A stretch of DNA of 64,000 nucleotides from Eubacteriaceae bacterium. Its GTDB lineage: Bacteria > Bacillota > Clostridia > Lachnospirales > Lachnospiraceae. A program made the position numbers and the translations under genes. The stretch lies in NCBI GenBank assembly GCA_910575665.1, contig CAJTFB010000018.1:1-64000 (forward strand). Direction: 5' to 3'. Position 1 is the stretch's first letter, and every line of letters starts with the position of its first letter. The notes below the pieces were generated by a model. The model was not told the origin of the DNA, searched no databases, and saw only the letters and a program-made list of their open reading frames with translations. Below, in pieces: positions 3,574 to 17,305 of this stretch.

Positions 3574-4698
3574 CTAAATATTACAGCTAAATGATCGTGA
3601 TTTTATGTAGTTTTCCATAAAGTTGTAATCCGGTTCATCGTCCGAATTTCTTACAGGCAGCTTAATCATTGTCTGTTTTAATTGTTTTTCAACCGTCCAT
3701 TTTCTTCCGCCATATGAAAACAAATCCGATTCCAGTTTTAGAATTTGAATCAGGAAAAATGCAATATATTTAGTTAGCGGGCGCTGGGTAGTCTCTAACG
3801 ACACGATTTTTTCACTGGCAAAAAACTCTTCTTCCTGATAAAAACATGCCCCTATACTCCCATCATATGCCAATGTAATTAAATTTCCTTTTCTGTTACT
3901 TTCAGATACATACGCCGTTACTCCGTTATTCTCCTTCGAAGTACTCACATAAGGTATGTCTCCCGGCGACATATTCTTTATATAAACAGAAGATCCCCTT
4001 CTTACATCGAAATACTTTTTATCACCAAGACAAAAATACTTCCACTCCCGATCATCTAAGGAAACCACATCAGATCTGACAGCTCCTGCATACTGTTTTT
4101 CAAATTCCTTCTGGTCAATGTGATCCATGTACCAGCACGCTTTATCATACCCCTCTTCCAGAAAATAGTCTGGTATCCCATTAATATCTGCATTTAAAGA
4201 TAAAATGTAATTTTCCATGAATAAAAAATCAGGAATATAACCGTCATCAGAATAAAATTTATGCTCATCAACCATATACTCTCCCTTATTCATACATGCG
4301 GGAAGTTTTATAAGTGTTTTTTTCATTTGCTCCTTATTCCATTTGCGGCCATAGCTAAACCGGTATTTTTCATTTCTAATAATAGTAATAAAAAACATTG
4401 CTAATATCTCATTCATTTCATGCCCACGCAGGAACAAAACATTTACATCATCCGAAGCCCAAAATGGTTCTTTCTGATAAAAAGCTTCTCCCACCCCGCA
4501 CCCATTATAATTTACTGATATACAATTCCCTTGAAAAAGTGGTTCTTCATTAATTTTTTCCCTTACACCATTCATACCCTGTATTGCCCCCAGAAAATTC
4601 AAGTCGCCAGGAGTCATGTTCTCTTTTGTCAGTCGTTTTCCTTTTTTGATATCAAATATTTTTCCCAGATAAAACTCTTTCCAACCCGCAGTATCCAT
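3574..4698 (-). CDS. Specificity subunit of a BcgI-like/type I-like restriction-modification system
   Basis: The protein is an internal duplication. Each half starts with a target-recognition segment (GWKEFYLGKIFDIKKGKR and REWKYFCLGDKKYFDVRRG), contains an MTPGD/MSPGD turn, and ends with FSYGRKW or FSYGGRKW followed by a TLIKLPA/TMIKLPV helix. Two such domains recognise the two halves of a split DNA target. The start at 4698 is preferred over 4728 because GGAGG lies nine bases before it; the methylase stop codon falls between that site and the start, so translation is probably coupled. The partner is the fused nuclease-methylase immediately upstream. It resembles the B subunit of BcgI and also HsdS. 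Confidence 0.85.
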   Translation of the reverse strand: MDTAGWKEFYLGKIFDIKKGKRLTKENMTPGDLNFLGAIQGMNGVREKINEEPLFQGNCISVNYNGCGVGEAFYQKEPFWASDDVNVLFLRGHEMNEILAMFFITIIRNEKYRFSYGRKWNKEQMKKTLIKLPACMNKGEYMVDEHKFYSDDGYIPDFLFMENYILSLNADINGIPDYFLEEGYDKACWYMDHIDQKEFEKQYAGAVRSDVVSLDDREWKYFCLGDKKYFDVRRGSSVYIKNMSPGDIPYVSTSKENNGVTAYVSESNRKGNLITLAYDGSIGACFYQEEEFFASEKIVSLETTQRPLTKYIAFFLIQILKLESDLFSYGGRKWTVEKQLKQTMIKLPVRNSDDEPDYNFMENYIKSRSFSCNI

Positions 4699-4702
4699 AA
4701 GT

Positions 4703-6922
4703 TTATTCCTCCAACATTCCTTGTTCACCCATATACTTATATAATGCGTATTTCTTTAAAGTTCGTTCAAAATCTGCATCGCATAATCTGCTATAATCTG
4801 TCTTTATATAAGCTTCTGCTAATGCTTCGTCAACAGCCTTAATCTTGTGCCTGATATAAACAAAATCATTTGGATCTGCCACTCCATCTATTTGCTCCAT
4901 CCATTGTACCCGAATATTTGCCCAGCCGCCAGCATCTTTTCTTCCATTATGTGGAATCACCTTAAACCCATCATCCTGCCATCTGGCAAAAAATACTGAC
5001 TTTCTTTCATCATGAGGAATATGTGCTTTAAATACCATAATGCAGGTCGCTGTCCCTACATGACTGTCAAAAAACAGGTTGGGGGGCATTGTCATACAAG
5101 CTAATAAGGTATGGAACTTTAAGATATTTTTACGCAGCCCCTTTCCACTATTTCCCGCGCAGGACATTGGAACAATCGCAATTCCTATTCCCCCAGTTTT
5201 TATGTAATGCAGCATGGAAGCTATAAAATCCAGTTCATCCTGACCTTTTTGTATTACAACCTCTTCCGGGGCACTATCCGGATAAGGTCTGATTATTTTA
5301 TTTGCGCTTGTTCCTATTGAATATGGTGGATTTATCATTGCTATATCTATATCCCCAAACGTACTCAACGCTTCAGATAATGGAACTTTTTTTCCATCCT
5401 GCAGATATGTCATTCCGCTGTCATCCATTGGATTATAAGAATCTGACATCAGAGAAGAACAATTAAATAAGTTTGCCTTTCCATCACCATGAAACCGCAT
5501 ATTCGCGTATGCAAGGGCATACATTGACGAATCTCTTTCTACTCCGATCAAACTATTTGTTCTTGCGTATTGATACTTTTCTTCCTTTTGCTTTTCACTT
5601 ATAAATTGACATCGGATATTATCCTTGATTCGTCCAAGTGAGGCTATGAGAAATGCCCCTGTACCGCAACATGTATCTAGAATTTTTGTTTTCTCTGAAA
5701 AAGGCTGCCCACTATAATATTCCGCAATATCACAAAATAGCTCTGTAATATGTTTTGGTGTTAAAACAATCCCTTTTTCCTTTGCATTTCCCTTTGTAAA
5801 ACGCAAAAAGGTCGTATAAAATTCACCCATGATATCAATGCCTTTGTAATGTTCGAGTATTTCGATCAAATTTTCATACAATGAATAAATACAACAGGAT
5901 AAAACCGTTTCACCATCACTAAAATAACTATTCTGCCCTTTGGGTGCTTTCGTCAGTTCATCTTTACATAATAAAACATCGTAAAATTTTTTTAGAGACT
6001 TCCGTTTCCCTTTGGGAATCTCATCAATATCCCAAACACCATCAATATAATCATCTTCGTATTCATCTTTACCATCACCATACAAAGAGGCTTTCAACAT
6101 CTTTACTGCATCTTTGCCAATTAAATCATGAAATAATTTTTTTGCTTTAGAATCCATTTTTCTGTCAATGGCTAATTTGGTTTCTCTATATAATCTTGAA
6201 TCCTTATTTGTTAATCCAAGTACGATAGCTGACACAAATCCAGCTTTAGAATTATCTTCAATTCCATTTGCACGTAAAAAATTCGCACATGATAATGTGT
6301 ATTTCCTGAGTTCTTTCCTAACTTCTTCCTCTGTGGAGGAATATCTGCCCAGTACAATATTAATATCTTTTACATATTGATCGATAGGAACAAGCCCATC
6401 GTCATATCCGCCATCTTCCAACACTTCCAGATCCGATAATTCTCCGCCTTTTGGAAGTACGAATGAAGTAATTCTTAGCTCCGACACGCTTTGACCAGAT
6501 ACCCCGACAGCCACAACATCATATTCCTGATTTAAAAACGTAGCATAATACAATGCTCCATTTATCGCATATTGTTCTGTTTCTGCTGGTGTTCCATAAC
6601 CATATATTTTATATTCTTCTACATTATCAAACATAGAGTGTTTACTATTGGCTCCATGAATTTGAGCTTTGCATTCTACTATAACAATAACATCTGATTT
6701 TTCCTTTGTTATGATAAAATCAGGCGTTCCTCTTCCTGACAATGTTTGTTTCTTAGAAGCTTTTGCAAACACATCTTTCAACCAATTATATGAGGTTCCT
6801 TTATAGCTGTCCTCTTTAAACCAGATTACTCCATTTTTTTCTATATTCTGTTTCGAAGAATAGCCAGAAAACGAACCTAATTTCCCTGATACAATCCCCT
6901 TTGTTAATTCTTCTGAAGCCAT
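4703..6922 (-). CDS. Fused nuclease/N6-adenine methyltransferase, BcgI A-like
   Basis: An N-terminal PD-(D/E)XK-type nuclease is seen in GTPDFIITK followed by VIVIVECKAQ (residues ~65-90). A helical linker precedes an adenine methyltransferase core of the HsdM type, with SAM motif I LDTCCGTGAFL and catalytic motif NPPYS. Cleavage and methylation in one chain, with a separate two-domain specificity subunit, matches the type IIB/BcgI layout. In that family the complex cuts on both sides of its site, though cutting position cannot be read from sequence. At 739 residues it is somewhat longer than BcgI A. The start follows GGAGG by seven bases. A type I HsdM with an extra nuclease domain is the alternative. 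Confidence 0.82.
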   Translation of the reverse strand: MASEELTKGIVSGKLGSFSGYSSKQNIEKNGVIWFKEDSYKGTSYNWLKDVFAKASKKQTLSGRGTPDFIITKEKSDVIVIVECKAQIHGANSKHSMFDNVEEYKIYGYGTPAETEQYAINGALYYATFLNQEYDVVAVGVSGQSVSELRITSFVLPKGGELSDLEVLEDGGYDDGLVPIDQYVKDINIVLGRYSSTEEEVRKELRKYTLSCANFLRANGIEDNSKAGFVSAIVLGLTNKDSRLYRETKLAIDRKMDSKAKKLFHDLIGKDAVKMLKASLYGDGKDEYEDDYIDGVWDIDEIPKGKRKSLKKFYDVLLCKDELTKAPKGQNSYFSDGETVLSCCIYSLYENLIEILEHYKGIDIMGEFYTTFLRFTKGNAKEKGIVLTPKHITELFCDIAEYYSGQPFSEKTKILDTCCGTGAFLIASLGRIKDNIRCQFISEKQKEEKYQYARTNSLIGVERDSSMYALAYANMRFHGDGKANLFNCSSLMSDSYNPMDDSGMTYLQDGKKVPLSEALSTFGDIDIAMINPPYSIGTSANKIIRPYPDSAPEEVVIQKGQDELDFIASMLHYIKTGGIGIAIVPMSCAGNSGKGLRKNILKFHTLLACMTMPPNLFFDSHVGTATCIMVFKAHIPHDERKSVFFARWQDDGFKVIPHNGRKDAGGWANIRVQWMEQIDGVADPNDFVYIRHKIKAVDEALAEAYIKTDYSRLCDADFERTLKKYALYKYMGEQGMLEE

Positions 6923-7009: not shown

Positions 7010-7158
7010 CTGACCTGTTTATATTTGATAAAACTACGAAGAATATTTACACATCGGCAAGGCGGATGAACGAGTCGTAGCGGCGACTACGTCGAGTAAA
7101 TCCAACGCAGTCCGATGATGTAAATAGACAAGTAGTTTTGCTAATTATAACAGGTCAG
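7010..7158. repeat. Long imperfect palindrome (MITE-like element)
   Basis: The left end CTGACCTGTTTATA is mirrored by TATAACAGGTCAG at the right, and the symmetry continues inward through AAAACTAC/GTAGTTTT and ATTTACACATCGG/CCGATGATGTAAAT to the centre near 7080. The whole ~149 bases can fold as one hairpin. It encodes no protein. The right arm supplies the last codons and stop of the adjacent radical SAM gene, so the element seems to have inserted at, or to cap, that gene's 3' end. It may also act as a terminator. Confidence 0.7.
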
Positions 7159-8014
7159 GGATACGAAATGCCGGATACGGGCCGAAAGACGCCAGTTCCT
7201 CCAGATCATCCCGGTTGCAGTATGAGATATAGCAGTCACATTCCCTTCTGTCACATATGCGGGCATTTTCTGAAATGTGCCACAATGTTTCCTCCGGATC
7301 TCCATACAAATTAGCTGATTTGCGGCGGCAGCGGTTACAGGCATACATTTCCCCCTTTGCATTGCAAAATAAAGCACTCCCACAGTGGGCTGCATCCGCC
7401 TTATAATGGCGCAGTTCCAGTGGAAAATAGGGGTCCAGCCCAGAGAACGCCTGGATCTCCTCCCGGCTGTATTTCCTGCCCAGCCCGTCCATCTTATTGA
7501 TCCAGAAATACACCGCCGGATCTAGATTTTCTCTGATCCTCAGCAGCAGTGATACGTTCTCTGGTACCCCGACAGCGCCGGCACAGAACAGGACTCCAGC
7601 TTCTTTTAACTCATGACATACCCTCAAAAAATCCTGCTCCGATACCATATCCGGATGGAAGGTTCCCCAAAGCCGGAGCTTCTCCCTCTCTCCCCCTGCT
7701 TTTTCAAATTCTCCCAGCATTTGCTCCACGGAAAAACTGAAATTACTCTGGGCGCCCACTGCCTCGATCTGTGACAGGCGACTGAGTTTCGCCAGCGCCC
7801 TCCAGTAATACCGATGGATCAGCGCCTCCCCATAAGGAACGATCTGAATGGCGCCCGCAAACTTCTTTTGTCCGATCTCCTCCACAAACTGAAACAGCTC
7901 CCTCTCATCCTCTTCCAGCTGCCGCTGGCTCTTTTTTTCTTTGGAAAATGGACAATAGCCACAGGAATAGTTGCAAAATCTCAGACTTCCCCGGTAATAG
8001 ATCTGACGGACCAT
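7145..8014 (-). CDS. STM4011-family radical SAM protein
   Basis: The N-terminus has the radical SAM cluster motif CNYSCGYCPF (CxxxCxxC, near residues 13-20). The C-terminal third holds further cysteines (CGSALFCNAKGEMYACNRC) that look like an auxiliary metal or Fe-S site of the SPASM/twitch type. Such enzymes generate a 5'-deoxyadenosyl radical; the substrate here is unknown. The ATG directly abuts the upstream stop (TGAATG), so the two radical SAM proteins are translationally coupled. Its last five codons come from the adjoining palindrome, and the original C-terminus may have been slightly different. Family name given from recognition of the cassette order. Confidence 0.8.
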   Translation of the reverse strand: MVRQIYYRGSLRFCNYSCGYCPFSKEKKSQRQLEEDERELFQFVEEIGQKKFAGAIQIVPYGEALIHRYYWRALAKLSRLSQIEAVGAQSNFSFSVEQMLGEFEKAGGEREKLRLWGTFHPDMVSEQDFLRVCHELKEAGVLFCAGAVGVPENVSLLLRIRENLDPAVYFWINKMDGLGRKYSREEIQAFSGLDPYFPLELRHYKADAAHCGSALFCNAKGEMYACNRCRRKSANLYGDPEETLWHISENARICDRRECDCYISYCNRDDLEELASFGPYPAFRIPDLL

Positions 8015-9307
8015 TCACGCTCTCCCCCATTCCGTTGTCCTAGCCGCTTTTTCCATTTTTTTCCTGACCTCTTCTGACATCAATGCCGGTCCAAGAAAAT
8101 CGGACAGAGAGATCCCTCTCTCAGTTAGATAAATCTTCGCAGAATCTGCTACCGCCATACCGCTCCGGCTCCACTCTGTCAGCAACGGATAATCCCCTTC
8201 CGGCTCGCTGCCAAACCGGCTTCGGTACTCATCTTTATCGATGCCGCAGCAGAATAAAATATTCTTTATGACATAGCGCCTTCGCATCTCTTCTTCTGAG
8301 AGAAGGTATCCGTGAGTGACCTCCAGAAAATCTTTCTTCTCCATATACTGCTGTAAAATGTCCACACACCCCCTCTGTCCCACGGCAAAGGGAGTGGAAA
8401 AATGCAGATCCTCGATGTAACTGCGTCCGCCGCAGCCGATGGATATGGTGTTCTCAAATCCACAGCTACCCCGATTCAAACTATTTGGATCTTTCACAAA
8501 CCGGCGCATGGAAAGCTGCTTATAGCCTCTCGCTTTCAGAAAATCCCTCAGCTCCTGGTACATCTCATAAACGGCCTCAGGATTGAGTGTCACCTTCTGC
8601 GCCAGAAATGTACCTTTTTTTATATACAGCGGGTAGACAAACATTTCTTCTGGCTCGTATGCTGCCGCCTGCCTAGCGGAATCTAGCAGGCTTTCCACCG
8701 TCTGTCCTGGTATGCCGTAGATGAGATCCAGATTGATACAGGGGAATTTATTCTTTTTCAAGATGCGGGCTGCCCGGTGAACCTGCTCTGGCCTATGACA
8801 CCGGTTCAACGCCCGCAATTCCGCATCATCAAAACTCTGCACTCCCATACTCACCCGGATGACACCATTTTCCTTCAAAAGTGCCGCCTTCTCTTCCGTC
8901 GTCTGAGCCGGGGAGGTCTCCACAATGATCGTCTCTCCCTCAAATCCCATCCGGTCTCTGGCTATAGAAAAAACCCGCTGAAGCTGTTTTTCTGAGAGCA
9001 GCAGCGGCGTCCCGCCGCCCAGTGTCAGATCCGAAAAATCTGCCCCCTCTGGAATAATAGTCCTCAGCTGCTCCGCCTGCCTCTCCATGGCGTCCACATA
9101 GGCAGACATAAACTCATCGGACTGCCCTGTCACGGAGAACAGGTTGCAGTAGCCGCATTTGCTCTGACAAAAAGGAATATGAAAATAAAGGCTGTTCTGA
9201 GCTCCTACCAGCCTTTGTATGTAATCTTCCAGACGAATCCCCGACAGCGGACCATATGCCGTCTTATGGGGATAACTGTACATGTATTGAACATATGGAT
9301 TATCCAT
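8015..9307 (-). CDS. STM4012-family radical SAM protein (HemN-like)
   Basis: This resembles oxygen-independent coproporphyrinogen III oxidase: YFHIPFCQSKCGYCNLF carries the CxxxCxxC cluster motif, and GGGTPLLLSEKQL and VSMGVQSFDDAELRALNR are typical HemN-family blocks. A C-terminal HemN_C-like segment follows. In the cassette it is not expected to make haem; the HemN fold suggests radical chemistry or methyl transfer on an unknown substrate. I place the start at 9307, where AGGAG precedes ATG by seven bases. A longer frame to 9364 would read into a dispersed repeat and is unlikely. The next gene follows without a gap. Confidence 0.82.
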   Translation of the reverse strand: MDNPYVQYMYSYPHKTAYGPLSGIRLEDYIQRLVGAQNSLYFHIPFCQSKCGYCNLFSVTGQSDEFMSAYVDAMERQAEQLRTIIPEGADFSDLTLGGGTPLLLSEKQLQRVFSIARDRMGFEGETIIVETSPAQTTEEKAALLKENGVIRVSMGVQSFDDAELRALNRCHRPEQVHRAARILKKNKFPCINLDLIYGIPGQTVESLLDSARQAAAYEPEEMFVYPLYIKKGTFLAQKVTLNPEAVYEMYQELRDFLKARGYKQLSMRRFVKDPNSLNRGSCGFENTISIGCGGRSYIEDLHFSTPFAVGQRGCVDILQQYMEKKDFLEVTHGYLLSEEEMRRRYVIKNILFCCGIDKDEYRSRFGSEPEGDYPLLTEWSRSGMAVADSAKIYLTERGISLSDFLGPALMSEEVRKKMEKAARTTEWGRA

Positions 9308-9335
9308 GTATTTTCTCCTAGCTTTCTCATATTTG

Positions 9336-9403
9336 GCGGGTCCCAAGTTCAAATGCCTTTCCATGCAAGCATGAGCAACATTTTGACCCTGGTATCACAA
9401 AAT
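9336..9403. repeat. Dispersed palindromic repeat, copy A
   Basis: This shares its ends (GCGGGTC and GACCCTGGTATCACAAAAT) and its apical hairpin (CCATGCAAGCATG) with a second copy at 45961-46031. It fills the gap between the STM4013- and STM4012-type genes and supplies the stop codon of the former. Both copies lie in transcribed spacers, in the same orientation relative to transcription. An mRNA processing or stabilising hairpin is possible. Confidence 0.7.
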
Positions 9404-10189
9404 AAAATGTTTATAGGGAACCGTGTTGACGATGGGATGGTTAAAACCATGATACAGATATCCATCCTCACCATAGCAGGTTCCATGATCCGAGCAGCAG
9501 ATCACAAAGGTATCCCCCTTTTTATGGAAAGCGTGAAACAGCCGTTCCAGCTGTGCATCCACATAGCGCAGCGCCGCTCCATGGCTTTCCACGCTGTCCT
9601 TTTTGGCGCCCTCGACATAAAAATTATTGGGATAATGGATGGCTGAAATATTGATATACATCATCAGCAGCTGTTCCTCTGGCACCCCGCTTATCTTTTT
9701 TACAGCGAGATTGATCTGGTTTTTTGTAGATTCTTTTACCTTCGGTCCAAAGGAGGGATTCCAGTAGCTGTGCATAAAATAGGAGGGCATCACCTTTCCA
9801 ATATCCGTCCGCTGGTCAAAAAAACTCAAACCACCGATGCAAAAAGTCTCATAGCCTTCCTTTTCCAGTCCCTCCACAAAGGTAGCTCCACGAAAACAAA
9901 ACGCCCCCTCCGGCGCCTTTCTCCCCATCCCGATATCCTCGGAAAAAAACAGTTTTTCCCTCTGTTTCATATTTTTAATTCCAACATCCATCGGAAGAAA
10001 TCCGGCAAACATGGCCTGATGGGAGGGATAGGTAAAATTTCCCGGCGCCTCGCATCGGCGCCATTTGCCATACCGATTCAGAACCGGAGTCCCTCCCCGG
10101 TTCTGTTCTTTTTCTGCCACATCATAGCGCAGGGAGTCAATACAGACAAATAAAATATTGTATGCTCCCACGATCTTATTCATATTCAT
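9395..10189 (-). CDS. STM4013/SEN3800-family sulfatase-like hydrolase
   Basis: This is an alkaline-phosphatase-superfamily fold. The N-terminal strand NILFVCIDSLRYD carries a metal-binding Asp, NFTYPSHQAM holds the likely Thr/Ser nucleophile, and VICCSDHGTCYGEDG near the C-terminus gives the DHG metal site. At 264 residues it is compact compared with secreted sulfatases and has no signal peptide, so it should act in the cytoplasm on a phosphate or sulfate ester made by, or fed to, its radical SAM neighbours. It ends inside the dispersed repeat. Its own ribosome binding site is weak, and its usual upstream neighbour is separated from it by about 1 kb of gene remnants. Confidence 0.8.
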   Translation of the reverse strand: MNMNKIVGAYNILFVCIDSLRYDVAEKEQNRGGTPVLNRYGKWRRCEAPGNFTYPSHQAMFAGFLPMDVGIKNMKQREKLFFSEDIGMGRKAPEGAFCFRGATFVEGLEKEGYETFCIGGLSFFDQRTDIGKVMPSYFMHSYWNPSFGPKVKESTKNQINLAVKKISGVPEEQLLMMYINISAIHYPNNFYVEGAKKDSVESHGAALRYVDAQLERLFHAFHKKGDTFVICCSDHGTCYGEDGYLYHGFNHPIVNTVPYKHFIL

Positions 10190-10246
10190 AACTCGTTTTA
10201 TCTATATGATTTGAAAATATAATTCTTTGGGTTTCGTCAACAAATA

Positions 10247-10789
10247 TTATACTGGTTGAAATTCTCTTTTTAGTTCAAGCACCTGCTCCAAAGTAAGTCC
10301 AGAATACAGCGCAATCTCCTCTGAGGACAACTTCCCTGCTCCTATCATCCTCAATGTAGATTGTCTTTTTTCCTGTTCTACACCCTGCTCATATTTTTCC
10401 TGATAATTCATCTGCAAAGTCATATATTCCAACCTCCATTTTTCATTCTTTCTGACAGACTGCACTGCCTCATCTAACTCTCTGGTAAATTCATCTTCTG
10501 GTTCCTTCCCATCAATAAAATCAAGCAGCTTTTTCATTTCCGGGGTGACATCATCCATTATGCCCTCTAAACTAACATTTCCTCCTTCCACTTTTGTAAT
10601 GATATTAAGAGTTCTATATAATTCATCCACTTGACTAGGTGTTGAAATCATAGATTTAACTTTGGTCTTTTTTTCAAACTCATCACTTAATTCTTTTGTC
10701 GAATTTACTACGCTATCAAATAACGTAGCTAATGATTCTTTTAAAGTTAAATTTTCTGACAGCTTATTATGATAAACCGTATTTTGCAA
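10247..10789 (-). pseudogene. C-terminal remnant of an Rpn/PD-(D/E)XK transposase-like nuclease
   Basis: This highly charged helical protein has a coiled middle part and ends in a typical tail (LSSEEIALYSGLTLEQVLEL), as seen in Rpn-family recombination-promoting nucleases. The N-terminal nuclease half is missing. The frame opens only a few bases after a truncated ATPase gene ends, and in the same frame it extends upstream without an ATG (a TTG is the first start-like codon). I read it as the surviving 3' part of a gene joined by deletion to an unrelated 5' fragment. It splits the STM4011-4015 cassette. Confidence 0.55.
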
Positions 10790-10800
10790 TTGCTGAAGTA

Positions 10801-11040
10801 TTAAGTCAAAAATATGATAGTCTCTTTTCTTACCTCATTTAAACGTTGCAAATTATAATTTTCTTTAAATAAATAATCACCATTTTCAACTATGCAATTA
10901 TTAAAGAATAAATTGAGTGCCTTTAACACATTTGACTTACCAACATCATTTTTCCCCGTAAAAACATTAAGTTCTTGTACGCTTGATATCGTTTCCCTGT
11001 ATACAGAACGGAAATATTGTATTTCTATTTTACTTATCAT
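10801..11040 (-). pseudogene. N-terminal fragment of an OLD/RecF-like AAA ATPase
   Basis: The 79 residues start ISKIEIQYFRSV and contain a Walker A motif (FTGKNDVGKSN). This is the beginning of the large ATPases of OLD-type or DUF2813-type nucleases, often found in phage-defence genes. All other ATPase motifs (Walker B, signature) and any nuclease domain are absent, because the frame stops after KETIIFLT. It lies back to back with the Rpn-like remnant, so together they mark an insertion that has decayed or been trimmed. It is very unlikely to be functional. Confidence 0.6.
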
Positions 11041-11145
11041 CAGTTCCTATCCTTCCACAAAAACTCCTATTTCATTTTTTCATGATTACTGATTTTTTCC
11101 CTCCCTATATATCCCATATATAACATAACAGGAAATTTCAGTTTC

Positions 11146-11241
11146 CTAAAAAATTTCCTTTCTCCAACGTTCCATAACCTCTTCCGCAATAATAATCGGC
11201 ACTTTTCTAATGCTTTCCCCATTTCTTTGAACTCTTCTCAC
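11146..11241 (-). CDS. Possible 31-residue peptide overlapping the ATP-grasp gene's stop
   Basis: A GTG at 11239-11241 overlaps the preceding TGA (GTGA) and opens a frame of 31 codons rich in Arg and Ile, ending MERWRKEIF. The overlap is typical of translational coupling. There is no good ribosome binding site of its own and I recognise no family. It could equally be the 3' scrap of the inserted, decayed genes next door. Confidence 0.25.
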   Translation of the reverse strand: MRRVQRNGESIRKVPIIIAEEVMERWRKEIF

Positions 11242-12239
11242 CTGTCTCTGCCAGCTGCTCTTTGTGCCATCCATTCCACCTGTCGCCGGTAGATCCGGTT
11301 CTCATGAAAAATATCCTGATACATTAGATCCCCCTGACCATTCATCTCGATAATCTTTGGTTTCAGGGACCCCCGTTCCAGAAGTACATCGATCCCAGCC
11401 ATCCTCAGCTCCGGGAAACACGACATCGCTTTTTCGCAAACTGAATTGATCTCACAGATCACTTTTTCTGAAAGCCCCAGATCCGAAAATGCCAGTGGAG
11501 AATTATTCAGATGAAGGTTTGTCACCGGACCAGAAGAACGCCTTGCCACCACAAATTCACACCTTCCAAACTGCCAGACCACCCGGAGATCATAACTTTT
11601 TCCTCCAAAAGATGCTTTGGGGTGCCAGCGCTCCACCACCGCTCCCAAAGACAGCACCGCCTCCAGCAGCCGGCAGATCTCCTGAGTGTTCTCCAAACGC
11701 CGGAGCTTCTTCGTATTCACCAGCTCCCCCCTTTGGAGAACGCAGGAAGTATATGCCATCATCCTGCCCTGTCCCGGTGCCAGACGAAAAGCGGTAACCC
11801 CGGCAGCACCAGAACTGTAAACAGGCTTAATAAACACAGAAAAACTTCTATGACGCTTCATCGTCTCCATAAGCTGTTCTGCGTTTTCAACCTTCTCTTC
11901 CAACATCTCCGTCACCGGAACCTCTTTTTCCATCAATATTTCTTTACAATGTCTTTTGTCCAGAAGACGAAGAATCTCAGAGGGAGGGTTCAAATAAATG
12001 CCCCCTGTCATCTCTAACTGTTTCATTTGGCGATGAAATGAAGCCAGATGATCATTCATTTCATAGAGATCGCTGCTCTTATAAGAGGGAGGATCTAGTT
12101 TCACCACATCCTCATGAAACTCCATCCCCCCTGCCTGCTGCCAGTCCACAAACCGGACCGACTTATGTAGCTCCCTAGCGGCCCGGAGAAAATACTCCGT
12201 CCGTCTTGTCTCCGGTTCTCCGACCAATACGATGCCCAT
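11238..12239 (-). CDS. STM4014-family ATP-grasp-like protein
   Basis: The ATP-grasp fold is suggested by FIKPVYSSGAAGV (nucleotide-binding loop), SYDLRVVWQ, AGIDVLLE and IIEMNGQGD (metal-binding Asn/Glu). ATP-grasp enzymes join a carboxylate to an amine or thiol through an acyl-phosphate, so a ligase step in a small-molecule or peptide pathway is likely; the substrate is unknown. I place the start at the ATG at 12239, after GGTGG. The longer frame begins with TTG. It follows the STM4015-type gene closely and would normally be followed directly by the sulfatase-like gene, now about 1 kb away. Confidence 0.75.
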   Translation of the reverse strand: MGIVLVGEPETRRTEYFLRAARELHKSVRFVDWQQAGGMEFHEDVVKLDPPSYKSSDLYEMNDHLASFHRQMKQLEMTGGIYLNPPSEILRLLDKRHCKEILMEKEVPVTEMLEEKVENAEQLMETMKRHRSFSVFIKPVYSSGAAGVTAFRLAPGQGRMMAYTSCVLQRGELVNTKKLRRLENTQEICRLLEAVLSLGAVVERWHPKASFGGKSYDLRVVWQFGRCEFVVARRSSGPVTNLHLNNSPLAFSDLGLSEKVICEINSVCEKAMSCFPELRMAGIDVLLERGSLKPKIIEMNGQGDLMYQDIFHENRIYRRQVEWMAQRAAGRDR

Positions 12240-12253
12240 AGATTCCACCAAAT

Positions 12254-13117
12254 TTATTCGGTGAGCATCGGATAGCGGTAGATCTCTCCGTCGTACTCAT
12301 CGTCCTCCTGCGGATCGCTTACATCCACCTTGGCAGACAACCGTTCCAGCTTCTTCATCATATCTTCCGACATATAGTGATATTCCAGATTCACCTCTTT
12401 GATATTTTCATAGTCAGGCAGCGTCTTTAACAGGATCTCACCGCCCTGATCCGTCAATGTCCCCTTGGAAAGATCCAAGGTGTCAATCTGTTTCATGTAC
12501 TTGCTGTCACAAACCACCTCTGCCACCTCATCCTGAATCTCACTGTCCATAATGCCAAGAGCATGAAGTTTTGGAAAATTTGACTTTTCCAACATGTTTT
12601 TTACATCCTCCACTCCGCCGTCAAAGCCATAGTCATCCACACCAAGATACAGCGCTAGCTCTTCCAGTTCCGGCAATTCTGCCTCTGCGATGCTGGCAAG
12701 CACCTCTTTGGGGAGACCGCCACAGATGATCTCTAGACGCTTTAACTTCGGATGACAGATCTTTCCAAGGCTCAGATTCGTTCCTCCCTTGATCGTCAAA
12801 ATTTCCAATCCTGGAAGTGCCTCCCATAGAGCGGAATAATCTGCCTGCTCGATCCATGATACCTCGCACTCTTCATAATCCATATCCCCCACAAACAGAC
12901 TCTTGATCCCTGTGAATTTTTCCTTATTTGCCACAATGCTGTCGATGATCGACTGGGCACTGTTTTCCCAGGATTCTCCCCAACATCCAATGATGATCTC
13001 TTCCAGTTCCGGCAGCTGCGGATCTGTCAGGATCTCTTCCGCCATAGTCTTTGCATTCTTTTTGCCATCTTCATAATCTTCCCACTCATATACATACTTT
13101 TTACTCTTTTCTGCCAT
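12254..13117 (-). CDS. STM4015-family leucine-rich-repeat-like protein
   Basis: The sequence is acidic and built from irregular repeats of the form LPELEELALYLG, FPKLHALGIMDSEI and MKQIDTLDLSKGTLTDQGGEIL, which read as a leucine-rich-repeat-like solenoid. There is no signal peptide, membrane segment or catalytic motif. It probably serves as a scaffold or binding protein for the other cassette members. It is the first gene of the cassette and has a GGAGG site ten bases before its ATG. I recognise it mainly by the order 4015-4014-4013-4012-4011, as in Salmonella. Confidence 0.75.
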   Translation of the reverse strand: MAEKSKKYVYEWEDYEDGKKNAKTMAEEILTDPQLPELEEIIIGCWGESWENSAQSIIDSIVANKEKFTGIKSLFVGDMDYEECEVSWIEQADYSALWEALPGLEILTIKGGTNLSLGKICHPKLKRLEIICGGLPKEVLASIAEAELPELEELALYLGVDDYGFDGGVEDVKNMLEKSNFPKLHALGIMDSEIQDEVAEVVCDSKYMKQIDTLDLSKGTLTDQGGEILLKTLPDYENIKEVNLEYHYMSEDMMKKLERLSAKVDVSDPQEDDEYDGEIYRYPMLTE

Positions 13118-13204: not shown

Positions 13205-15349
13205 TTAGCACAAACCGTCAGCTCTGTCATCTATTACCTTTTCCATAAACTTATCTCTCCAGTTCATATCAAAACTAACTTTGTCTACTTCAAACAGGTC
13301 GTGAACCCTGGTAATCATCCCATCATATTCCCTGTGCCTATCCATCAAAGAACATAATTCTTCACTGCGGACCGGCATAATGACAACGTTATCTGTAAAT
13401 TTATCCTTCTCAACAGTGGACTGCAGTGGAACTGCCGCAATGGCCTTCCAGATATTAATCGTATTATAGTCAAAGCGATCTGCAATAAAAAATGATGTGA
13501 CTTCCCTACCTGTTTTTGCCGTCTCTTCCTCTACCTTCAAATTAATGGAATGCCTCAGAACAGGTTCCCATTCCCCGCGTTTCTGACTATTTGCATTCAT
13601 AAGAGTTGCCTCAAGCATCACAACCTTATCTTTTTCATAAATGACGATGTCCCCCTGCCCGCCGCCGGCATGGACTAATGGTTCAAAATCCGCCGACAAG
13701 GTCAAATTGTAGCTCCCAAGTAAATCGATCCTTTTTCCGGAAAAATAGTACCAGGCGATTCCTACAATATACTCATAAATTGTAGGTACAGTGGCATCTT
13801 GACATACCATCTCTTTAATCTGCTTATCATTGGTCCGGTCCGCAAACAACCGAAGGATCTCCTTGACCTTCTCTGCCGGATAGGATCTCTCCAGGAATAG
13901 TGCAAATTCCCTTTTTCGCTTGTCTGCCAGAATGAAAGGTATTTCCTCCAAGGATCTACCTGGAAATTCCCTCCGAATATGATACTCGACTTGTGCAATT
14001 TCCTTATTCTTATACTTTAAGATTTCAGATAAAGAGACCACTTCACAATAATAGCTATATAAACCACCTTCATACTCTCTATGATTGCGATAGCCGGAAT
14101 GAGTCTCTTTTGATAAATTTCCTGCGAGACAGCTTCGGATAAACTCTAGATCAAAAATACAAGAACACAATTCCCGGTATGCCAATTCAACGAAGCCGTT
14201 ATGAAAACTAATAATACCAGCAGCCTTAAATATTCTCCTGGTTGTATCCGAATATTCCCTGATCTGATCCAGAATCTTAGATAATGAAAACTGGGTAAAT
14301 AAATATTCATTGGTATGACCGGTGAGGATTTCCGGATGCTGCTCATCGAACACCGTAAAAGATGGTCTATCTCCTGTTTTCAGCCAAAAAATGTTTTGTC
14401 CCCTGCCAAAGGCCTTATTCAACATAGCCCTGTTATCTTCATAAAAAGTCAATAAATCATCCAATTTTTCAGAGTTTTTTTCTTCATGAACATAATTCCA
14501 CAACCGACCATAAAATTCCCAATAGACATCCACAGCCGTTTTACTTTTTCTGTTCTTATAGAATTTGCGGAACACCGTCTCCGATATTTTTTCCTGAGTT
14601 CTTAATTCTTCAGGTATATCAATTTGTATATCCGATACAATATCGCCCTCTCGGTAATTCACCACATAGTCTTCTATGTTGGTAAAATCAGAATAGGGAT
14701 TTAATCCCTGAACCAGCTCCGAAAACTCATTTTCAGACAATCGTTTTCTTTTTAATAACGCAAATATCGCCAGATTGAAGGGAGAATAAAATCTCTCCCC
14801 GTCAGAATCAAACAGCCGGAGCTTTAGCAGCTGGCGTAAATAGACGATATTAACACCGTCGACAGGGAGCAGCATTTCAAGTCCATCTTTCTTTATTTTT
14901 TGAGGATCAAGTAGCAGCTTGCCCACAGGAGTAATATCCCGGTCCTCATCTGCAAAGCCCAATTTGACCAGATTGCTGGTATAATGTCTTGCCCGGTCCT
15001 CAACGCCCAGATCAAACTGATGAATCAAATCCAGATATGACATATAATTGCGCTGGATCCAACCCAGATCCAGCGTCTCGACAGCCTCATTAAAATCTGG
15101 AAATTTCTTTATCTTTTCCATAAGCTTATCGTACGGACCATGTTTAACAAATACCTCTGGAGAACGTTCGATCGCCTGACGATAAAATTCGTACTGCGCG
15201 AAACTGTCCGGCATGGAAGCCCAACGCATTTTTTTAGCGTTCTGAATGTCGTCAAGAATTGTTAAGTATCCCTGAAGTGCATGTATCACATCATTTCTTC
15301 GACCATTTGTATCCATCAGATTAAAAATCTGTCCTTCTTTGATTCTCAC
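13205..15349 (-). CDS. AlwI-family type II restriction endonuclease
   Basis: The 714-residue protein matches the AlwI family in overall look. A long DNA-recognition part comes first. Near the C-terminus a compact catalytic core reads GGGQGDIVIYEKDKVVMLEATL, here spanning about residues 556-577, with a D...E.T arrangement instead of the usual D...E.K. Family members recognise GGATC-like asymmetric sites and cut outside them. The start is GTG after GGAGGA. It follows two adenine methyltransferase genes with gaps of 10 and 2 bases, so the three genes form one M-M-R operon. The exact target cannot be read from sequence. Confidence 0.82.
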   Translation of the reverse strand: MRIKEGQIFNLMDTNGRRNDVIHALQGYLTILDDIQNAKKMRWASMPDSFAQYEFYRQAIERSPEVFVKHGPYDKLMEKIKKFPDFNEAVETLDLGWIQRNYMSYLDLIHQFDLGVEDRARHYTSNLVKLGFADEDRDITPVGKLLLDPQKIKKDGLEMLLPVDGVNIVYLRQLLKLRLFDSDGERFYSPFNLAIFALLKRKRLSENEFSELVQGLNPYSDFTNIEDYVVNYREGDIVSDIQIDIPEELRTQEKISETVFRKFYKNRKSKTAVDVYWEFYGRLWNYVHEEKNSEKLDDLLTFYEDNRAMLNKAFGRGQNIFWLKTGDRPSFTVFDEQHPEILTGHTNEYLFTQFSLSKILDQIREYSDTTRRIFKAAGIISFHNGFVELAYRELCSCIFDLEFIRSCLAGNLSKETHSGYRNHREYEGGLYSYYCEVVSLSEILKYKNKEIAQVEYHIRREFPGRSLEEIPFILADKRKREFALFLERSYPAEKVKEILRLFADRTNDKQIKEMVCQDATVPTIYEYIVGIAWYYFSGKRIDLLGSYNLTLSADFEPLVHAGGGQGDIVIYEKDKVVMLEATLMNANSQKRGEWEPVLRHSINLKVEEETAKTGREVTSFFIADRFDYNTINIWKAIAAVPLQSTVEKDKFTDNVVIMPVRSEELCSLMDRHREYDGMITRVHDLFEVDKVSFDMNWRDKFMEKVIDDRADGLC

Positions 15350-15359
15350 CAGGTTCCTC

Positions 15360-16280
15360 CTAATAGTTTACAATTAAAACCTCTCGTGTTGCTGATTTTC
15401 TATTTTTCCTATGATAGTTAGCGTTATGATATGTATAATTGAGATCAATCTGTCTGTAATCCGGCCTGTCGATCACCCATTTTTCCAATATATCGTTTCT
15501 TCTCCCTTTGGATTCGATGACATTGGACAACGCAAATCGTATTTCTCGCCGGGATAGCGAATCAAGCAGGTCCAGCAGATCCCTTTCATCTTCTTCCGTC
15601 CATCCTCGCTTCTCATTATAGGCGGCACAGGTAATAAGATAGGGAGGATCTGCATAAACAAAATCCCCAGGCACAAGCTGATCGAAATCAAATTCGTTAA
15701 AATTTTTATTCGAAAATACTGCTTTCTGTGTATGGAGAAGACCGAGAAAGTCAGATAACTTATTATACATGTTCTGATTAAAGTCTCTCTTCCCCGGCGG
15801 CAGATTAAAATCGCCCTTCCGGTTAAACCGGATCTGATTGTTAAAGGCATAGATGATCAGTGTATATAATTTTATGTAATATTCTTCATCCTGAACCTCT
15901 GCTTGGTTGACATCTCTGCGCAAATTCATAAAAGGTTCCCGATTATAGGCGCTCAACCCGTCACTGCTGTTGCAACCATAAAAATTGTATCCCTTTGTCT
16001 TTACGTCGGACAAACCATAACGATGGATGACATTTTCAAGCCGCTTTATAAATTCCTGGCTGTCAAGTCTCTGCATAACAGAGTACAGATTTATCAATGG
16101 AGTACAGCTATCATTGTAAATGTGCGTCTTTGCCACTACGTTGATCCCAACATTACATCCTCCGCAAAACAGATCTACAAAAGTTCCTATTTGCTCTGGA
16201 AACAATGGTAATATCTGAGATAAAAGCCTATACTTTCCCCCGGTGTAATTTAATGGTGACTGTATCATAGTTTCCCTCAT
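15360..16280 (-). CDS. Dam/D12-class DNA adenine methyltransferase (first of a pair)
   Basis: The N-terminal SPLNYTGGKYRLL and TFVDLFCGGCNVG are the D12-class SAM-binding motifs, and VYADPPYL is the catalytic DPPY motif. It protects DNA by methylating N6 of adenine. With its neighbour it should methylate the two different strands of the asymmetric site cut by the AlwI-like enzyme. Its 306 residues are normal for Dam-type enzymes. It lies between the second methylase (2-base gap) and the endonuclease (10-base gap). Confidence 0.88.
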   Translation of the reverse strand: MRETMIQSPLNYTGGKYRLLSQILPLFPEQIGTFVDLFCGGCNVGINVVAKTHIYNDSCTPLINLYSVMQRLDSQEFIKRLENVIHRYGLSDVKTKGYNFYGCNSSDGLSAYNREPFMNLRRDVNQAEVQDEEYYIKLYTLIIYAFNNQIRFNRKGDFNLPPGKRDFNQNMYNKLSDFLGLLHTQKAVFSNKNFNEFDFDQLVPGDFVYADPPYLITCAAYNEKRGWTEEDERDLLDLLDSLSRREIRFALSNVIESKGRRNDILEKWVIDRPDYRQIDLNYTYHNANYHRKNRKSATREVLIVNY

Positions 16281-16282
16281 TC

Positions 16283-17305
16283 TTATTTCCCTTGATCACA
16301 AGTACAAAGAAATAACCGCTCTTGATTGTCGGCTATATCTGACTTACCCGTTGTAAAAGCTTTATAATTTTCCGAAAATACTTTTACTTCCCCTTTGTCT
16401 TTTAATATTCTATAAATGTCATCATCTGAAATTTTTGCATTGGAACGATCATCTCCCTTTGTCGCCATATTGTTATAAGAAAGCAAAATATAGCGACAGT
16501 CAAGGTTTTTAATCAGATCCTCAAATGCCTCCGCTGCACTTTTGGTACAATATCGGCTCTTTAATTGGCTTCGATCCATCTTCTTGGCAACACCAAATAC
16601 TTCCGGTTTTTCCCACCGCGCCACATTTTCCAGCAAATGATATGCATCACAGTATTGTCTGGAATTATACGGCGGATCTATGTAAACTAGGTCTGCTGCT
16701 ATGTCCCTGGCCAGCTCATTCGAATCCACATTAAAGCATTGATTATTCGGATTATTCACTTCGCTTATCTCCGGCAAATGCAGTTCAAGATGTGCATCGA
16801 ATTCAACACCTCGCCGATAGGCGTCATAATGTCCACAGGTTTTGGCTATTTTATCCATGGCATAAAGTAAAGAAGTTATCAAAATCGCCCGTTCCCTAAA
16901 ATTAATTCTGCCCTGCTCATATTTGTCCTCTATGTCTTCTCTTATAAAACCTATTTTTGCACAATCCTCCAAACTAAAATAGGTATTAGCAAAATTTTGA
17001 GTCATATAGTTTTCTTCCGTTCCCTGCCCAGCATTGTAAACATCGATCATATTTTCCAACAGATCTTTATGATAGGGCTCAGCAGAAAACCAGGCATAAT
17101 TGGAAATATAATTACTATACAAAATATCGTTTGTTATCAACTGTTTCTCTTGAAATGCAGATGCAACCACTCCTGTTCCTGCAAAAATATCCACAATTGT
17201 ATTTACATCTTCACACTCGTCTTCTACCACTTTCTGGATGAATGGAAGCAAACGATATTTATTTCCAAGATACCGTCTATTGTTAATTTTAGTGGTTTTA
17301 GCCAT
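16283..17305 (-). CDS. D12-class DNA adenine methyltransferase (second of a pair)
   Basis: NNRRYLGNKYRLLPFI and TIVDIFAGTGVVA form the SAM-binding region, and LVYIDPPYNSRQYCDAYH holds the DPPY catalytic motif. This FokI/DpnA-like subfamily differs clearly from its neighbour, as expected if each enzyme modifies one strand of a non-palindromic site. It is the first gene of the operon, so methylation would begin before the endonuclease appears. Start and stop spacing fit co-translation with the second methylase. Confidence 0.87.
   Translation of the reverse strand: MAKTTKINNRRYLGNKYRLLPFIQKVVEDECEDVNTIVDIFAGTGVVASAFQEKQLITNDILYSNYISNYAWFSAEPYHKDLLENMIDVYNAGQGTEENYMTQNFANTYFSLEDCAKIGFIREDIEDKYEQGRINFRERAILITSLLYAMDKIAKTCGHYDAYRRGVEFDAHLELHLPEISEVNNPNNQCFNVDSNELARDIAADLVYIDPPYNSRQYCDAYHLLENVARWEKPEVFGVAKKMDRSQLKSRYCTKSAAEAFEDLIKNLDCRYILLSYNNMATKGDDRSNAKISDDDIYRILKDKGEVKVFSENYKAFTTGKSDIADNQERLFLCTCDQGK

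Follow-up and report, generated by a model that had tools for sequence, protein, structure and literature searches.

A protein-tethered pathway proposed for the STM4011-STM4015 cassette, with a leucine-rich-repeat protein ending in glutamate as candidate carrier

Introduction

The five-gene STM4011-STM4015 cassette was examined in a stretch of 64,000 nucleotides from a Eubacteriaceae bacterium of the Lachnospiraceae (GenBank assembly GCA_910575665.1, contig CAJTFB010000018.1, positions 1 to 64,000), referred to here as the window. The cassette encodes a leucine-rich-repeat (LRR) protein (STM4015), an ATP-grasp ligase (STM4014), a hydrolase of the sulfatase/alkaline-phosphatase superfamily (STM4013), and two radical S-adenosylmethionine (SAM) enzymes (STM4012 and STM4011). 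Because of its terminal glutamate, its multiplication beside single enzyme genes, and the match of STM4014 to ligases of terminal glutamates, STM4015 is most likely the carrier or substrate of the cassette enzymes. We lean towards reading the whole cassette as a carrier-protein (protein-tethered) pathway centered on STM4015. Loading of the terminal glutamate by STM4014 is quite probable by analogy with such ligases, and the radical enzymes seem somewhat likely to work on the loaded arm.

In the proposed mechanism, STM4015 would be a folded LRR protein that presents a near-obligatory C-terminal glutamate on an acidic and probably flexible arm. STM4014 would phosphorylate a carboxylate of this glutamate and couple it to a small molecule through the amino group of the latter, in the way LysX acts on LysW. 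The tethered small molecule, or the glutamate itself, would be altered by STM4012 (HemN/class-C-like) and STM4011 (SPASM/twitch-like), and STM4013, with threonine as its nucleophile, would act on a phospho or sulfo group by removal or transfer, in many lineages together with a HAD phosphatase fused to STM4011. The steps would presumably follow in this order. The proposal builds directly on the families of the proteins, their active-site residues, the terminal glutamate, the multiplication of STM4015, the modelled fold of STM4014, and the co-occurrence of the genes.

Genes of the cassette

The five genes lie on the minus strand as open coding sequences in the order 4015-4014-4013-4012-4011, and the stop codon of 4012 abuts the start codon of 4011 in the junction TGAATG; place, order, and junction are as given in a preliminary description of this DNA. 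Membership in the STM401x families, for which that description had proposed a search of NCBI family models, was borne out, since 5/5 window proteins passed the curated NCBIfam cut-offs of STM4015, 4014, 4013, 4012, and 4011. STM4015 is present as a single copy in the genome. The features of the cassette are as follows.

12254 to 13117, minus strand: STM4015 family LRR protein, 287 aa (NF038076, 338.8 bits, cut-off 275; solved homologue 2ra8)
12257 to 12316, minus strand: STM4015 C-terminal acidic linker and tail (..DDEYDGEIYRYPMLTE); the last codon, 12257-12259, encodes Glu287, the proposed attachment site
11238 to 12251, minus strand: STM4014 family ATP-grasp ligase, LysX/ArgX/RimK-like (321 bits, cut-off 175); start likely the ATG at 12239
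9395 to 10189, minus strand: STM4013/SEN3800 family hydrolase, sulfatase/alkaline-phosphatase superfamily, with Thr at the nucleophile position (NF038075, 374 bits, cut-off 250)
8015 to 9364, minus strand: STM4012 family HemN-like radical SAM enzyme, CxxxCxYC (NF006067, 513.5 bits, cut-off 380)
7145 to 8014, minus strand: STM4011 family radical SAM enzyme with a SPASM/twitch-like Cys cluster and without a HAD domain (NF038073, 290 bits, cut-off 200)

The terminal glutamate and copy number of STM4015

Glutamate is the last residue in 117 of the 121 STM4015 open reading frames (ORFs) counted. This count dropped ORFs below 150 bits to the STM4015 profile, for example those of L182 (79 bits, ending in Asp) and L184 (33 bits, ending in Gly); a later set of 14 copies, for which 60 bits was used, ended in Glu without exception (14/14). 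After redundancy reduction, Glu-ended proteins made up 107/111 (at 90%), 74/78 (at 70%), and 22/25 (at 50%). As controls, a terminal Glu occurred in 53 of 643 neighboring ORFs of at least 150 aa and in 4/24 generic LRR ORFs, and the R/M-Y/N type of tail in 0/24 of the latter. The idea that LRR proteins in general carry this tail was therefore rejected; the control LRR ORF of L126 (..RPRLGE) is like the STM4015 tail in its last three residues. Outside STM4015, the tail pattern was found only in five frames of 34 to 104 aa, which were taken as spurious.

In a non-redundant alignment, the terminal Glu is the best-conserved polar column (96/99), and the columns that equal or exceed it are Leu, Pro, or Gly; one copy without Glu (L096, 3259-4389) was excluded from the 99 rows by its length. 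In alignment A3, two non-Glu rows of 75 had been excluded, so that its "invariant" Glu is not independent evidence as the 96/99 is. The alignments used 44/60 (A2), 46/75 (A3), 34/40 (A4), 29/53 (A5), and 24/57 (A6) relatives. The tail counts are uncorrected for tree shape; when an STM4013 tree (51 rows, quick method) is split at its midpoint, Glu-ended STM4015 occurs in both halves. The terminal codon is GAA 65 times and GAG 31 times. Two positions before the Glu, Leu, Val, or Ile is found in 91/99, and the types of tail differ by lineage (RYPSLTE, MNAMLTE, RYCSVAE, RYVAVGE). Ahead of the tail lies an acidic stretch with a net charge of about -5 (net 5.3 vs 1.7 per 22 residues). A solved structure from Bacteroides fragilis, 2ra8, is an STM4015 homologue (2.6e-72) with about 78 residues ahead of the STM4015 part; the alignment reaches PMITE at residue 354 of 362, and the residues after it were assumed to be a tag.

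LRR proteins are usually binding proteins, and the terminal Glu could in principle serve only to bring STM4015, as a scaffold or regulator, to an enzyme, with no covalent chemistry. We consider such a docking tag highly improbable: conservation of several residues would be expected of a docking peptide, the terminal Glu tops all other polar positions, and the modelled partner ligase has the fold of a terminal-glutamate ligase.

In 11 loci, STM4015 is present in 2 to 6 copies, and the enzymes found there (at least 100 bits) are single. Two of these loci, L086 and L081, lie on short contigs and lack one and two enzymes, respectively; a second, lower-scoring 4012-like ORF in L076 and 4014/4013 fragments below 100 bits in L104 were left out of the count. 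Multiplication of STM4015 while the enzymes stay single is the behavior of substrates or carriers and not of subunits. In cyanobacteria, copies within one locus are mostly 36-49% identical and counterparts between loci mostly 55-91%, with the type of tail kept and with exceptions both ways; judged from these identities, the copies are old, separately maintained lineages. The preliminary description had listed the repeat protein simply as one of five members, whereas the data make STM4015 the likely substrate or carrier.

The ATP-grasp ligase STM4014

The modelled STM4014 structure matched ArgX in complex with LysW best, followed by LysX and RimK, all ligases of a protein's C-terminal glutamate. 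The comparison was made by VIA-align, which re-examined the 999 chains ranked at the top by Foldseek, a list from which the absence of a family carries no meaning. RimK structures reached 22.8, almost as high as ArgX and LysX, and 37 of 45 STM4014 members matched the RimK family model. Both results would fit an alternative in which STM4014 merely tags STM4015 with glutamates for regulation, in the way RimK treats ribosomal protein S6, and the radical enzymes have an unrelated target. This is improbable in our view, because the five genes share a locus or, failing that, a genome, and the radical enzymes are thereby tied to STM4015.

Radical SAM enzymes and phosphatase-like hydrolases

STM4012 matched HemN (1olt) over most of its length with an E-value of 1.8e-58, and NocN (9p2u), a class C methylase, over part of its length with 5.9e-34. 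STM4011 conserves C14, C18, and C21 (CxxxCxxC), followed by C211-x9-G221-x4-C226 and by C254, C259, and C261. The C-terminal pattern of SPASM domains is C-x9-15-G-x4-C, and SPASM-like radical SAM enzymes often modify peptides. The Cys set of STM4011 is like that of SPASM or twitch enzymes, but the Pfam SPASM model matched only 2/30 STM4011 sequences, and the sole solved structure matched was SkfB, weakly (E 0.009). This match and the peptide substrates of SPASM-like enzymes speak for a pathway like that of ribosomally synthesized and post-translationally modified peptides, in which residues of the STM4015 tail itself would be the substrate of the radical SAM enzymes and STM4014 would have another target, such as a free metabolite. 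Such a pathway is rather unlikely, since only the last Glu and the aliphatic residue two positions before it are kept, and so variable a tail offers little fixed core to modify except the Glu.

Formylglycine sulfatases carry a Cys or Ser motif at the nucleophile position, where the Cys has the formylglycine role. STM4013 instead has a Thr there (Thr51), invariant in 51/51 sequences. This Thr aligns with the Cys of the arylsulfatase 6hhm and with the Thr of a nucleotide pyrophosphatase. The earlier term "sulfatase-like" thus stands for the superfamily, since 6hhm is the best solved match, but not for a Cys nucleophile. Besides T51, the metal-binding Asp/His residues of the superfamily (D16, H183, D232, H233, and H249) are conserved, and among STM4013 relatives the Pfam models Sulfatase and Phosphodiest matched 35/35 and 25/35, respectively.

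A sixth activity, beyond those named in the preliminary description, is a HAD phosphatase. STM4011 carries a C-terminally fused HAD domain in 43/106 loci (one of them a duplicate), many of them clostridial (L024/L084, L031-L083), and in the one example examined this domain belongs to Pfam Hydrolase_3. In Salmonella the HAD protein is encoded by a separate gene beside 4011; the window and L026-L030 have no such fusion.

Distribution and gene order

All five genes were present in 84 of the 104 distinct loci compared, which include loci interrupted by contig ends, and in 74/104 they stood in exactly the order of the window. The conservation of gene order, another check proposed in the preliminary description, is thus that of a unit kept elsewhere. 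The cassette is sporadic, yet present in seven phyla. STM4015 scored above its cut-off in 8/398 genomes of the window's phylum, 6/296 of the Rhodococcus phylum, 4/146 of the Nostoc phylum, 1/149 of a planctomycete's phylum (with one strong case below the cut-off), and 0/398 of the Thiothrix phylum, where the center genome falls just under the cut-off; each survey counts its center genome, which was known beforehand to carry the cassette. A scan of named genomes gave at least 508 confirmed STM4013 relatives, and the best 80 of these at least 508, mostly from Lachnospiraceae, were used. Duplicates remain in the set (L024 = L084; L177 = L105), and loci added later are partly dependent, such as L193, which lies on the same plasmid as L189.

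The names of all five NCBIfam families derive only from Salmonella locus tags. In the quick-method STM4013 tree, the Salmonella protein clusters with three clostridial ones (fork support 84), which suggests transfer. The Salmonella-type cassette was not found in E. coli in a near search (about 85% identity) of 20,395 records. In a plasmid collection, records with cassette genes came from Salmonella, Methylobacterium, Deinococcus, Streptomyces, Paenibacillus, and Bacteroides. One Salmonella record labelled as a plasmid (L185) has typA, glnA, and glnLG beside the cassette, genes expected on a chromosome.

Five genomes with a Glu-ended STM4015 (G232, G399, G405, G1361, and G567) all contain 4014 and 4011 (5/5). 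In G1287, an LRR lookalike ends in Asp, and neither 4014 nor 4011 is present. Genomes G402 and G406 are without 4014. The split of cassette genes in some genomes may be due to contig breaks.

STM4013 relatives were also observed as orphans, with the other cassette genes absent nearby (L094, L097, L188, and L190). Two of them lie on Streptomyces and Kitasatospora plasmids (L188, 8756-10919; L190, 8824-9786), and the orphan of S. albidoflavus adjoins genes for an 81-aa protein, a NUDIX hydrolase, and a protein annotated as lasso peptide B2. The Anaerolineae relatives (L094, L097) come from genomes without 4014 and adjoin an ORF that is aminotransferase-like by eye.

Neighboring genes and the nature of the product

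The neighbor survey of 102 loci, extending 4.5 kb from each, comprised 758 ORFs and gave 13 clusters present in at least five loci, not all of them named by Pfam. No peptidase or deacylase recurring across lineages was seen in these 13 neighbor clusters, genomes elsewhere not being searched; a gene for an M3 oligopeptidase-like protein occurs downstream of the cassette in five sister Paenibacillus loci only. Seven clostridial loci have a gene for a MatE exporter no more than 4.5 kb from the cassette. It stands just upstream of 4015 on the same strand in four loci (L039, L040, L046, and L053) and is also near the cassette in L033, L035, L071, and L192; in Bacteroides finegoldii a MATE gene follows 4011. 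An exporter thus recurs across lineages to a limited degree.

The absence of a shared peptidase favors a product that stays on the protein, and the phosphatase-like enzymes and the exporter favor a small molecule. In the first case, the modification could be permanent: the ligase and the radical enzymes would build a C-terminal group, the finished LRR protein would be the functional product, and nothing would be released. Besides the missing peptidase, the divergence of the cyanobacterial paralogues within and between loci is as expected if each recognizes a different partner, and the additional N-terminal residues of 2ra8 also count for permanent modification. We hold it to be unlikely, since a role for the phosphatase-like STM4013 and HAD proteins is easier to envisage with a small molecule and since exporter genes accompany some clostridial cassettes and that of B. 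finegoldii. The product may be a modified small molecule, peptide, or cofactor, the general idea of the preliminary description.

A more specific hint comes from Paenibacillus, where a gene for adenylylsulfate (APS) kinase lies directly 3' of 4011 in 7/7 named loci (L088-L093, L095); its position hints that sulfate may enter the product there. In Streptomyces cadmiisoli (L189), the gene after 4011 resembles one for a sulfite exporter. Other recurrent neighbors encode two-component kinases (12 loci), an ABC-type ATPase (9), and a LysR regulator (6). A DUF6745 protein with a partner of roughly 100 aa was observed beside some actinobacterial, Deinococcus, and Methylobacterium cassettes (L186, L187, L189, L194, L196, and L199), and in L186 and L187 it shows leucine-rich repeats by eye.

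Several observations weigh against a carrier pathway centered on STM4015. In addition to the lack of a peptidase recurring across lineages in the neighbor clusters, four STM4015 copies do not end in Glu, all of them extra copies in cyanobacterial multi-copy loci (two in L096, one each in L104 and L179) that also carry Glu-ended ones. The similarity of STM4014 to LysX in sequence is weak (E 0.003), and other ATP-grasp enzymes come close in Z to its model, namely DcsG (22.4), glutathione synthetase (21.4), and DdlB (20.9). The B. finegoldii plasmid has only 4015, 4014, 4011, and a fragment of 4013, with no 4012. In G232, the set is spread over three contigs (4015; 4014; 4013-4012-4011-HAD), and 4015 genes isolated from the enzymes occur in S. 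cadmiisoli, in G567, and on a Calothrix plasmid.

The insert and the restriction genes of the window

The preliminary description overlooked an insert of about 1.03 kb that splits 4014 from 4013 in the window.

About 10197 to 11229, no strand assigned: foreign, decayed insert of ~1.03 kb in the 4014/4013 gap, with a 5-base flanking repeat GAGTT; absent from L026 and L027

Its sequence is single-copy in the genome, and the genes on either side of it are open coding sequences. In L026 and L027, whose cassette DNA is 86-91% identical to that of the window, 4014 and 4013 are contiguous, and the insert is not part of the cassette elsewhere. It carries an N-terminal piece of an AAA_15 ATPase (about 10807-11040, minus strand, 48 bits) and an ORF of 180 aa that is Rpn-like by eye and had no match in NCBIfam, Pfam, or PADLOC.

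Restriction-modification genes flank the window cassette on both sides (3574-6922 and 13205-17305). An AlwI-type endonuclease with two D12 methylases is common to L026 and L027; a pair of a type IIG-like N6 methylase and a specificity protein is present in L027 and not in L026. A function of the cassette in defence, as such neighbors might imply, was rejected, because no restriction gene was among the clusters in at least five loci, not all of which are named. PADLOC gave only a weak match for STM4012 (PDC-M51A, 31 bits) and none for the other four cassette proteins.

Comparison with known systems

LysW is a small carrier with a Zn finger. Like STM4015, it ends in Glu after an acidic extension, and it is served by ligases (LysX, ArgX) whose fold the STM4014 model matches, best of all ArgX with LysW. 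In contrast, STM4015 is an LRR protein of roughly 290 aa, and its cassette adds two radical SAM enzymes and phosphatase-like hydrolases. RimK, the ribosomal S6 glutamate ligase, shares the modelled fold and the Mg ligands of STM4014 and acts on a protein C terminus, whereas for STM4014 the proposed target is an LRR protein whose gene shares an operon with those of radical SAM enzymes. The same five genes in the same order are found in the Salmonella STM4011-STM4015 region; it differs from the window by the adjacent HAD hydrolase and by its flanks, which contain sulfoquinovose, porin, and glnA genes instead of restriction genes.

Pearlin pathways attach a building block to the C-terminal end of a ribosomal carrier and modify it in place, and a radical SAM enzyme can be among the enzymes involved (PMC9303977), so that loading followed by modification would be alike in both. 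The pearlin ligase is tRNA-dependent, unlike the ATP-grasp ligase STM4014, and both the LysW and the pearlin systems use a peptidase, of which the STM401x neighborhoods show no counterpart recurring across lineages. According to the abstract of PMC12871812, NosN introduces a side ring that is attached to a glutamyl residue of a peptide. STM4012 resembles the NosN/NocN and HemN enzymes through its matches to HemN and, in part, NocN, and differs from them in scoring above the cut-off of its own family.

A full-text search by locus name, covering few subscription journals, retrieved passages that held only single-gene table rows and no functional account of the cassette, in agreement with the earlier statement that no product had been demonstrated. 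No paper combining radical SAM, ATP-grasp, and leucine-rich repeat was found in the same kind of search, and a term search of the ATP-grasp paper PMC4431377 found neither leucine-rich repeats nor STM401x loci.

Significance

The analysis points to a likely substrate protein, to the residue in question, and to the enzyme that would load it, and so makes the function of the cassette testable by mass spectrometry. The case for a new class of carrier biosynthesis, in which folded LRR proteins, at times several in one cluster, offer their terminal glutamate to a ligase of LysX type and two radical SAM enzymes, seems to us evenly balanced; if true, this class would yield a small molecule or protein-bound group that is made by radical chemistry and differs from all known ones. 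The hosts of the cassette include gut Lachnospiraceae, Paenibacillus, Streptomyces, Nostocales, and Salmonella. If the carrier reading is right, the short list of protein-tethered pathways would be extended to repeat proteins and to this radical SAM pair, and a terminal glutamate behind an acidic arm would be a handle for finding other carriers.

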